In this document: positions 17,562 through 21,811 of the stretch, piece after piece | How the letters are laid out: every line of letters starts with the position of its first letter | Numbering within the stretch: position 1 is the first letter of the stretch | NCBI RefSeq assembly: GCF_040267685.1 | Contig: NZ_CP158367.1 | Location: 1,860,001-1,924,000 of the forward strand | DNA from: Proteinivorax tanatarense | GTDB lineage: Bacteria > Bacillota > Proteinivoracia > Proteinivoracales > Proteinivoracaceae | Direction of reading: 5' to 3' | Length of the DNA stretch: 64,000 bases | The notes under the pieces: generated by a model | Database searches by the model: none | What the model was told of the DNA's origin: nothing | Seen by the model: only the letters and a program-made list of their open reading frames with translations | Translations under genes and position numbers: made by a program

Positions 17562-19731
17562 TTAGAGACCAGACCCAGCATTAAATCAAGTTTCAAATGT
17601 CCAGCTCTTAGTCCCAGCAGAATGAGCATAATATCGACGTTTTCGTGGCTAATAAATGTTTTGTTCTTCCACTCAAGATATCTACATTTACTAATTCAAA
17701 AGCTTTAATTGGCCACGAAAACTTATAAATTAGCTACATGCTGGGACGGAATTCTTTTTTCCAAATAAGCTACATGCTTGGTCAATAAAAAATATGGATA
17801 ATTATTATGTTGATTATATCCTCTAAAATCTCTGTAAGTAGTATGATAATTATAGAAATCTCACTAACCATAGAGGTTCACAGACCTAGCATCAAAACAA
17901 GTTTCAAATATCCAGCTCTTAGTCCCAGCAGAATAAGCAAAATATCGACGTTTTCGTGGCTAATAAATGTTTTGTTCTTCCACTCAAGATATCTACATTT
18001 ACTAATTCAAAAGCTTTAATTGGCCACGAAAACTTATAAATTAGCTACATGCTGGGACGGAATTCTTTTTTCCAAATAAGCTACATGCTTGGTCAGTGAT
18101 AGAACAAATAATTATTTAGATAGTGGTTTTACTTAATTAATTCTACAATTGAAATGATAGATTTTAACCTTTGCCTTGAGAACCAATAGACCCGGCATTA
18201 AATCAAGTTTCAAATCCAGCTCTCAGTCCCAGCAGAATGAGCATAGTATCGACGTTTTCGTGGCTAATATTTTTTTTGACCTTCCACTCAAGATATATAC
18301 ATCTACTAATTCAAAAGCTTTAATTGGCCACGAAAACGTATAAATTAGCTACATGCTGGGACGAAATCCTTTTTTCAAACTAGCTACATGCTTGGTCAGT
18401 AATAGAACAGATAATTATTTAGATAATGGGTTTACTTAATTAATTCTACAATTGGAATGATAGATTTTAACCTTTACCTTGAGAACCAATAGACCCAGCA
18501 TCAAATCAAGTTTCAAATCCAGCTCTTAGTCCCAGCAGAATGAGCATAATATCGACGTTTTCGTGGCTAATAAATGTTTTGTTCTTCCACTCAAGATATC
18601 TACATTTACTAATTCAAAAGCTTTAATTGGCCACGAAAACTTATAAATTAGCTACATGCTGGGACGGAATTCTTTTTTCCAAATAAGCTACATGCTTGGT
18701 CAGTGATAGAACAAATAATTATTTAGATAGTGGTTTTACTTAATTAATTCTACAATTGAAATGATAGATTTTAACCTTTGCCTTGAGAACCAATAGACCC
18801 GGCATTAAATCAAGTTTCAAATCCAGCTCTCAGTCCCAGCAGAATGAGCATAGTATCGACGTTTTCGTGGCTAATAAATGTTTTGACCTTCCACTCAAGA
18901 TATCTACATATACTAATTCAAAAACCTTAATTGGCCACGAAAACGTATAAATTAGCTACATGCTGGGACGAAATTCTTTTTTCAAACTAGCTACATGCTT
19001 AGTCAGTAATAGAACAGATAATTATTTAGATAATGGGTTTACTTAATTAATTCTACAATTGGAATGATAGATTTTAACCTTTACCTTTAGAACCAATAGA
19101 CCCAGCATCAAATCAAGTTTCAAATGTCTAGATCTCAGTCCCAGCAGAATGAGCATAATATCGACGTTTTCGTGGCTAATAAATGTTTTGGTCTTCTACT
19201 CAAAATATCTACATATACTAATTCAAAAACCTTAATTGGCCACGAAAACGTATAAATAAGCTACATGCTGGGACGAAATCCTTTTTTCAAACTAGCTACA
19301 TGCTTGGTCAGTAATAGAACAGATAATTATTTAGATAATGGGTTACTTAATTAACTCTACAATTGGAATGATAGATTTTAACCTTTACCTTGAGAACCAA
19401 TAGACCCAGCATCAAATCAAGTTTCAAATCCAGCTCTTAGTCCCAGCAGAATGAGCATAATATCGACGTTTTCGTGGCTAATAAATGTTTTGATCTTCTA
19501 CTCAAAATATCTACACTACTAATTCAAAAGCTTTAATTGGCCACGAAAACGTATAAATAAGCTACATGCTGGGACGAAATCCTTTTTTCCAAATAAGCTA
19601 CATGCTTGGTCAGTGATAGACCAAATAATTATTTAGATAATGGGTTTACTTAATTAATTCTACAATTGAAATAAGGAATGAGGTCTAAGGCCCAGCAGAA
19701 TGAGCATGGTATCGACGTTTTCGTGGCTAAT
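17562..19731. repeat. Tandem array of seven ~303-bp units with nested inverted repeats, plus a truncated eighth
   Basis: Each unit has a ~210-bp element and a 93-99 bp spacer. Elements run 17572-17783, 17883-18093, 18189-18397, 18492-18701, 18796-19003, 19099-19309 and 19403-19611. A partial eighth ends at 19731. Each element holds three nested inverted repeats, in unit 4: GACCCAGCAT/ATGCTTGGTC (18492-18501, 18692-18701), GTCCCAGCA/TGCTGGGAC (18529-18537, 18657-18665) and GTTTTCGTGGC/GCCACGAAAAC (18557-18567, 18630-18640). GACGTTTTCGTGGCTAAT is invariant in all eight. Spacers are also conserved except the first. Short open frames are not kept between units, so it is non-coding. It lies between convergent genes. 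Confidence 0.95.
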
Positions 19732-19791: not shown

Positions 19792-19818
19792 AAAAACGAG
19801 CTTTTTAAGCTCGTTTTT
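19792..19818. terminator. Bidirectional terminator between the array and the alpha-CTD/sigma-4/HARE gene
   Basis: A 12-bp perfect stem (19792-19803 with 19807-19818), loop TTT, with A-run and T-run on the two sides. It serves the minus-strand gene, whose stop codon (19817-19819) touches it, and insulates the array. Confidence 0.8.
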
Positions 19819-21616
19819 ATATATTACGTGGTTTTCTTAAAGTATAGTATCCTGATTTATATCTTTTAAATCTATGATCTTGAGTAAGGGCATTATAAAT
19901 AGTTTGTTCTTTTGTAAAATGAGTCTGTCCAACAATTCTAGCAATTTTTTTATAATACATAGGCTCTTTTTGTTCCTTTAATATATCGTAAATATAATCT
20001 GCAATATGGGGGTACTCTTTAATGCCCCACTCAACAAGCCCATATATTCCTCGGCCAACACGGGCAAAAACATCTTTATGATTAGCTAAAATAGCTCTAG
20101 CATACTGCGTAGTTATACTCTGACCATCTCGCTGATTAGCCTTTTTTATAATTTCTTTATAATGGAGAGCTCTTCCTTCCCTGCGGAGAGTGTTTATAAT
20201 TATATTAACCTTGGTTCCTTCTCGTTCCTCAAAGTTAACATTTCCCTGGGAGTTAACTTCAAAACAATTGGCGGAAGCTAAACAAGCAGGTATAAAATTG
20301 TCTAGCATTCCTGAAACAGGTGTATACCTCCGATTAAGGGTCAAGTAAATTTCCCTGTCTTTAAGTATATTTAATAGCTCCTTTTCTTTATAGCTACCTT
20401 TTTGAAGTATATCTACCCCTGTTTTTATAAGCTCGCTATAATGTTCAAGGGGTAAAACACCCATTCCCCATACATCATAATTTATTTGTTGATACATTGG
20501 ATCTATATCTAATATCATGGAGGAAAAGTTAGCAATATTAATTGAGGGAACTTTTAAGTACGTGTTTAGTTCATTGGTAAAATGATCATGGGTTAATACT
20601 CCCCCTTGAACTAAAGTATAAACATGAAGCCAGGCAATAAAGTGAATGTTACTAAAGTAGATATTACTCATAATTTTAGCCTTCATTTTTTTTATAATCT
20701 GTTGTATCCTAGCTCTTGTCAGACCATACCTATCTCCAATTTCTTGCAAAGTACATATCTCACCATCTAAACCATAGAAAAGGCTAAGCATCTTAAATTC
20801 TCTTGTATCGATACCATCAAATACTCTTTCTATCCATAAATCTCCATCTTTTGTTAGTAAGTAATCTCTTAGTATATGCAAAAGAGATTCAATTTCTCGA
20901 TAATTAAGGTTTCTTTCGTTTGCTTTGTTAAGAAAAGGTAACTGTTTTAACAAAGCACAGTTTACACTAAAAAGCTTGTTAAACATTCTACCTTTATACT
21001 CTTTATATAGTTCAAATTCATCTAAACATACAAGCTGGGACAAATTTTTTATATCTTCCCTATAACAAACATCTAAAATCTCTTCTTCTAACGGAAGTAG
21101 ATGTATAGGGTATTGCCCGATTAACAAGGATAATAGTTTTTCTCTCTCGTCTCCTATTCCCGTTCTCTGCCCCCAAAATTTATTTTTCCATTTTTTAGCA
21201 TCTTTTTCTTCTTCTATAATAAGGTTAATTTTATACATTATTTCCTCAGCAGATTTATTTCCTAAGTTTTTTATAGACAAAAGCTCTCTAACAGAAATAT
21301 TAAGTAGTTCCTTTACATTGTAAACTCCGCATTTTTTAAGACAGTTTTTTGCTCTAGACGATAACCCTATGTCATTAATGCTTGTATCACTCTTTATAGT
21401 AGTTCCTTTTCCTAACTGCCTTTTTAAGGTTTCTTTAATTTCCTGTATAGTATATTCTCCACAATTAGTAGTTTTAACTAGTTCTTCTTCGTCCATTAAC
21501 GCCAACTGCCCTAATGTTTTAATTTCTTTGTCATTTAACACTCGCTGAGCTCTTGCAGATAGCCCCAACTTAGAAATAGGCTTAAACAATACATTAGACT
21601 CAAAAAACTCACTCAC
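19817..21616 (-). CDS. RNA polymerase-like fusion: two alpha-CTD-like modules, sigma region 4-like HTH and two HARE-HTH modules
   Basis: A 599-residue protein from the GTG at 21616 (AGGGGGGAG site). Two helix-hairpin-helix modules like the RNAP alpha C-terminal domain lie at about 12-68 (LGLSARAQRVLNDKEIKTLG) and 80-132 (IGLSSRAKNCL...SIKNLGNKSAEEI). A sigma-70 region 4-like HTH lies at about 272-315 (LQEIGDRYGLTRARIQQI). Two HARE-HTH domains, as in the RNAP delta subunit, follow at about 470-531 and 538-594 (each ending GRGIYGL or KSGYYTL). No core-binding sigma region 2 is visible. It probably binds DNA or RNAP; targets are unknown. It stands alone, converging on the repeat array. Confidence 0.8.
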   Translation of the reverse strand: MSEFFESNVLFKPISKLGLSARAQRVLNDKEIKTLGQLALMDEEELVKTTNCGEYTIQEIKETLKRQLGKGTTIKSDTSINDIGLSSRAKNCLKKCGVYNVKELLNISVRELLSIKNLGNKSAEEIMYKINLIIEEEKDAKKWKNKFWGQRTGIGDEREKLLSLLIGQYPIHLLPLEEEILDVCYREDIKNLSQLVCLDEFELYKEYKGRMFNKLFSVNCALLKQLPFLNKANERNLNYREIESLLHILRDYLLTKDGDLWIERVFDGIDTREFKMLSLFYGLDGEICTLQEIGDRYGLTRARIQQIIKKMKAKIMSNIYFSNIHFIAWLHVYTLVQGGVLTHDHFTNELNTYLKVPSINIANFSSMILDIDPMYQQINYDVWGMGVLPLEHYSELIKTGVDILQKGSYKEKELLNILKDREIYLTLNRRYTPVSGMLDNFIPACLASANCFEVNSQGNVNFEEREGTKVNIIINTLRREGRALHYKEIIKKANQRDGQSITTQYARAILANHKDVFARVGRGIYGLVEWGIKEYPHIADYIYDILKEQKEPMYYKKIARIVGQTHFTKEQTIYNALTQDHRFKRYKSGYYTLRKPRNI

Positions 21617-21765: not shown

Positions 21766-21802
21766 GTAAATAAAAACTACCTTGAGGTTAACTCAAAGTA
21801 GT
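21766..21802 (-). terminator. Intrinsic terminator of queG
   Basis: The stem ACTAC-TTTGAG/CTCAAGGTAGT (about 21776-21786 with 21791-21802), ending in U-rich sequence on the minus strand, lies 10 bp after queG. Confidence 0.7.
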
Positions 21803-21811
21803 CCTGTATAA

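Follow-up and report, generated by a model that had tools for sequence, protein, structure and literature searches.

A 599-amino acid protein of Proteinivorax tanatarense combines alpha-CTD-like, sigma region 4-like and HARE-HTH modules and is a putative transcription regulator

The window, a stretch of 64,000 nucleotides from Proteinivorax tanatarense (contig NZ_CP158367.1), contains an open reading frame of 599 amino acid chain length. Its neighbours at the locus are queG, phoU/pst genes and a histidine kinase gene. The gene and its signals are as follows:

19817..21616, reverse strand: the gene, 599 amino acids, GTG start (open reading frame call and sequence)
preceding gene 19817..21616, reverse strand: ribosome-binding-like stretch GGGGGGAG (sequence)
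19792..19818, reverse strand: intrinsic terminator-like hairpin of 12 pairs with a T run, directly 3′ of the gene (hairpin prediction)
21773..21805, reverse strand: intrinsic terminator-like hairpin after queG, which splits the gene from the upstream genes (hairpin prediction)

Since two predicted terminators flank the gene, it is probably transcribed alone, as a single-gene unit.

A 304-bp tandem array of 6.9 copies is found at positions 17571–19672 of the window. The initial annotation pointed to the convergence of the gene on this array. The convergence is present, but a link between gene and array is rejected: the array is missing from the corresponding place in the sister species, where the intergenic gap is only ~60 bp, related copies are dispersed over both genomes, and a terminator lies between the gene and the array. 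The array beside the gene is incidental. It belongs to a repeat family that is dispersed over ~70 related places in its own genome and occurs at many in that of the sister species; further related arrays are at genome positions 1681584–1685812 and 1937847–1938783. A phage or plasmid origin of the gene was also considered and rejected, as there are no matches to phage records, one distant plasmid match, and viral contigs give single-domain matches only.

Three Pfam models match the protein above their curated cut-offs: RNA_pol_A_CTD (E-value = 7.1e-31, two stretches, the best at residues 75–129), HARE-HTH (E-value = 1.9e-10, two stretches, the best at residues 471–530) and Sigma70_r4 (E-value = 1.1e-6, residues 267–310). 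The alpha-CTD and sigma-4 assignments also hold in sequence alignments with solved structures of these domains. AlphaFold, with 62 aligned sequences as input, gave a confident model of the full protein (mean pLDDT 92.1, pTM 0.75) in which the modules are seen; the C-terminal half alone gave a pLDDT of 90.7 and a pTM of 0.63. The chain consists of eight small modules, and the secondary structure of the model displays four consecutive winged helices in the C-terminal half, the last two of which are HARE domains. All lie on the reverse strand:

21407..21595, reverse strand: alpha-CTD-like module 1, residues 8–70 (Pfam RNA_pol_A_CTD stretch; fold match 1z3e_B)
21209..21391, reverse strand: alpha-CTD-like module 2, residues 76–136 (best Pfam stretch, 75–129; alignment with solved alpha-CTDs)
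20933..21112, reverse strand: degenerate third alpha-CTD-like HhH module, residues 169–228 (AlphaFold helices at 178–225; aligns with the last alpha-CTD of the f11 proteins described below)
20651..20845, reverse strand: sigma region 4-like HTH, residues 258–322 (Pfam, solved-structure alignment, fold match)
20459..20650, reverse strand: winged helix 1, residues 323–386, acidic, net −4 (AlphaFold model; charge count)
20222..20458, reverse strand: winged helix 2, residues 387–465 (AlphaFold model)
20027..20221, reverse strand: HARE-HTH 1, residues 466–530, basic, net +6 (Pfam, charge count, fold match)
19820..20014, reverse strand: HARE-HTH 2, residues 535–599, basic, net +7 (Pfam; TIGR04567 at 538–594; fold match)

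The proposal in the initial annotation that alpha-, sigma- and delta-type modules are combined in one chain is thus borne out; profile searches found all three, and fold matches agree. Two details are revised. The two alpha-type HhH modules it listed are those detected by Pfam, but the AlphaFold model adds the degenerate third, which Pfam does not detect in the window protein. The two HARE copies are likewise confirmed by Pfam, but winged helices 1 and 2 had been missed and there are four in total.

Fold matches were obtained with the alpha-CTD 1z3e_B (Z = 11.9, rmsd 1.2, 64 residues), the sigma-4/flap chimera 7kuf_B (Z = 9.2, rmsd 2.3, 82 residues), the delta N-terminal domain 2m4k (Z = 8.3, rmsd 3.1, 69 residues) and the delta chain 9a6y_A (Z = 8.7). 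These are matches of single modules, made with VIA-align; a Foldseek search of the whole model against the PDB gave no matches under an E-value of 0.001. The middling Z values of the winged helices support only a common fold for the predicted domains. Weak Foldseek matches also link the winged helices in tandem to SelB, whose similar array binds RNA, and HhH and winged-helix modules do not discriminate between DNA and RNA.

The whole protein has a pI of 8.8 and a total net charge of +10. The residues of E. coli alpha-CTD that contact the minor groove are R265, N268, C269, G296, K298, S299 and E302. Counterparts of all seven are kept in alpha-CTD module 2 (alignment with solved alpha-CTDs), and about half of them in module 1. 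Some of the modules may contact proteins, given the acidity of winged helix 1, and protein binding is also within the capacity of alpha-CTD, sigma 4 and HARE.

The protein was compared with the RNA polymerase subunits from which its modules are known. It displays a sigma region 4 HTH, by both Pfam and fold match, but no Pfam model for sigma region 2 or 3 matches even at an E-value of 10, and none of the NCBIfam sigma models over E 1e-6 hits region 2; their matches lie around region 4 or in the alpha-CTD part. A true sigma factor is rejected on the lack of region 2, as had been anticipated in the initial annotation. The alpha N-terminal domain (dimerisation and core assembly) was not found at E-values up to 10, and the genome has its own rpoA as a separate gene. 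The delta subunit consists of one HARE domain plus a long acidic tail. The HARE fold is common to delta (RpoE of Bacillus) and the window protein; however, the latter has two HARE domains that end a long array, its C-terminus is the basic HARE-HTH 2 with no acidic tail, and this domain scores 26.4 bits with the delta model TIGR04567, under the cut-off of 42. Delta is rejected on this score and on the tail. Because sigma region 2, the alpha N-terminal domain and the acidic tail are all lacking, the protein is none of these three subunits. A search that picked up the B. subtilis control gave no other HARE protein in its own genome, and thus no separate delta subunit was detected.

The sigma-4 module shows a change in the helix that reads the −35 element. 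The recognition helix is TRARIQQIIKK where the canonical sequence is TRERIRQIEAK. In the 62-row alignment, R-E-R-x-R-Q-I-E-K is kept in all 57 rows outside the window family, at positions R584–A592 of sigma70, and R-A-R-x-Q-Q-I-(I/V)-K is found in all five family members. The changes correspond to E585A and R588Q (sigma70 numbering), both at base-reading places. SigA of the window genome and of genome G004 retains the canonical −35 helix. That the change is confined to this protein, with SigA unchanged, suggests that the sigma-4 module of the family reads a different target sequence. Alternatively, the module may read DNA more weakly, not differently, now that the counterparts of E585 and R588 are lost.

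The gene occupies an unchanged position in the five family genomes examined, with queG upstream and the histidine kinase gene converging downstream in each. It is evidently inherited vertically within its family. The whole protein evolves at the rate of its neighbours (identities of 72/47/49%, vs. 66/48/53% for queG and 71/44/45% for the kinase). The two HARE domains are the most conserved parts, with 85%–86% identity within the genus and 64%–70% across genera; alpha-CTD modules 1 and 2 show 69%–75% and 39%–48%, respectively.

An alignment-based search of 398 genomes of the phylum yielded matches at E 1e-20 in ten: the five of the window family and five of another Firmicutes family, f11. The gene was not found in the class-level relatives sampled. 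A scan of species genomes showed Patescibacteria proteins of ~360 aa that cover residues 262–595 of the query. Of the 192 Patescibacteria species sampled, 113 have a protein with the order sigma 4, winged helix, HARE, mostly in single copy and sometimes in two. At Patescibacteria loci L031–L101 its −35 helix is strictly conserved. The Patescibacteria genomes checked also carry a separate sigma-70-type open reading frame, which matches the region-4 part of the model alone. The sampled homologues adjoin mostly housekeeping genes (secDF, topA, valS and a HIT gene) and some transfer-type ATPases, not defence clusters.

Related proteins occur in other settings too. An operon on an Abditibacteriota plasmid (L136:26–7720) encodes a sigma4-HARE protein annotated as rpoD, an Eco57I-type methylase, a DUF4007 protein and a small AAA protein, a predicted gene set resembling a BREX-like defence system. 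In a three-gene cluster (L042:2069–6092) an alpha-CTD–sigma4–HARE gene directly follows a GHKL ATPase gene, an arrangement reminiscent of MZA-type defence. Two Lachnospiraceae loci (L088:4935–7574 and L109:4959–7925) encode proteins of ~880–990 aa that have one or three alpha-CTDs and sigma 4 and whose long C-terminal part matches no Pfam domain clearly. The alpha-CTD/sigma-4/HARE combination is therefore not unique to the window protein; by sequence comparison its module order recurs in other phyla. A tree of the C-terminal half places the window family beside f11 and the Abditibacteriota protein, not Patescibacteria. Its support is weak (86/64) and the long branches are flagged as possibly false, thus no origin is claimed.

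The modules, their folds and order, their conservation, the single-gene unit and the SigA-unlike −35-reading residues are established computationally. The explanation favoured here, with a probability of about one half, is that the protein is a stand-alone, vertically inherited, DNA-binding transcription regulator which imitates the upstream promoter-reading half of the RNA polymerase holoenzyme. The alpha-CTD modules (minor groove) and sigma region 4 (major groove) would be reused for reading the upstream half of a promoter, with four consecutive winged helices added to them, the last two being the basic HARE domains. Transcription start would be impossible for such a protein because sigma region 2, the alpha N-terminal domain and any catalytic part are absent from it. 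It might instead grip selected promoter-type sites at several points simultaneously and, once bound, block, reposition or aid RNA polymerase at these sites. DNA binding, the choice of sites, the target sites themselves, contact with RNA polymerase and an effect on transcription are all inferred. Several properties favour the regulator: the domain content and folds fit, alpha-CTD module 2 keeps its DNA-contact residues, the HARE domains are basic and most conserved, the gene is present in all five family genomes and has its own terminator and another before it, the −35 helix is changed, and in Patescibacteria the relatives occur alongside a separate sigma-70-type frame.

A rather doubtful alternative, although the most probable of those weighed against a regulator, is an accessory factor bound to RNA polymerase, i.e. 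a delta-like or anti-sigma-like subunit with sigma 4 on the beta flap and HARE on the core as in delta. All three module types derive from RNA polymerase partners, the second HARE domain has both the score with the delta model and the delta fold matches given above, and the genome displays no separate delta; however, the delta cut-off is missed and there is no acidic tail. The predicted model offers a further lead. The sigma4-flap chimeras align over 76–92 residues of the C-terminal-half model, and the match ends at model residues 118–120, i.e. 372–374 of the protein. The helix of winged helix 1 (361–371) may for this reason occupy the beta-flap groove of sigma 4, the place where the beta-flap helix binds. 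A groove already filled in this manner would argue against sigma-like docking.

A role in defence or in sensing of modified DNA, as in BREX PglW, MZA MzaA and related operons, had been among the suggestions of the initial annotation. It agrees with matches of the PglW model from alpha-CTD to sigma 4 (E-value = 5.7e-13, PADLOC) and of the MzaA model to the sigma-4 module (27.3 bits), and with the occurrence of relatives in the defence-type operons L136 and L042. At the window locus it is unsupported: queG and the histidine kinase gene match no defence models, both are also the neighbours in all sister genomes, and no nuclease, methylase or GHKL-type partner adjoins the gene in any of these genomes. 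Inheritance is vertical and complete (5/5), and the mostly housekeeping surroundings of the Patescibacteria homologues also speak against defence, which is improbable. Hardly more probable is a chromosome-architecture (nucleoid) protein of low sequence specificity. Eight small nucleic-acid-binding folds per chain and a basic pI would suit such a protein, but against it stand the net charge of just +10, the acidity of winged helix 1 and the fixed change at base-reading positions of the sigma-4 helix, which suggests specificity.

A transcription regulator of the type favoured here can be set beside several known or recurring arrays. In the Patescibacteria protein the modules between sigma 4 and the second HARE, both included, are arranged as in the window protein over ~340 aa. 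It shares with the window protein the invariants T289, L290, R301, R303, Q306, H485, L510, G523 and Y525, but it has no alpha-CTD modules, retains the canonical −35 helix R-E-R-x-R-Q-I-E-K and shows only 19%–26% identity. The window protein displays the order and invariants of a family with sigma 4, four winged helices and HARE; it and its four orthologues lack the canonical −35 helix of that family. The f11 proteins (L007, L008 and L117–L119) follow the order of the window protein, from an alpha-CTD array through sigma 4 and winged helices to HARE, but have four alpha-CTDs, only one HARE and the canonical −35 helix. A literature search, which did not include the 2012 HARE-HTH paper of Aravind and Iyer, found no description of this architecture as a stand-alone protein and none of the Patescibacteria homologue.

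Parts of the module combination are already known from defence proteins. PglW of BREX type 2 has been described as having an alpha-CTD-like domain, then winged-helix modules (PMC12839542). It differs in its NERD nuclease, kinases, C-terminal iSTAND and BREX operon, none of which is seen in the window protein or locus; the whole-length PglW score is 42 bits vs. a cut-off of 990, and Pfam detects neither a kinase nor a nuclease domain. MzaA, from the MZA anti-phage system, has the sigma-4 module in common, but its 27.3 bits compare with a whole-length cut-off of 800, and its defence partner genes are not seen at the window locus.

Tentatively, and with less assurance than for the regulator itself, the window protein and its relatives may belong to a widespread, unnamed class of transcription factors in which mimics of the upstream half of the holoenzyme (alpha-CTD and sigma 4) are joined to a four-winged-helix HARE array. 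The class would be common in Patescibacteria and family-wide in some Firmicutes, its array would have been borrowed by BREX PglW and MZA, and its sigma 4 would be a plain DNA reader that an internal helix keeps off the beta flap. If true, bacteria with few known regulators, especially the ultra-small Patescibacteria, have turned the promoter-reading modules of RNA polymerase into an independent regulator, and this would help to explain the presence of alpha-CTD and sigma-4 modules in the defence proteins PglW and MzaA.
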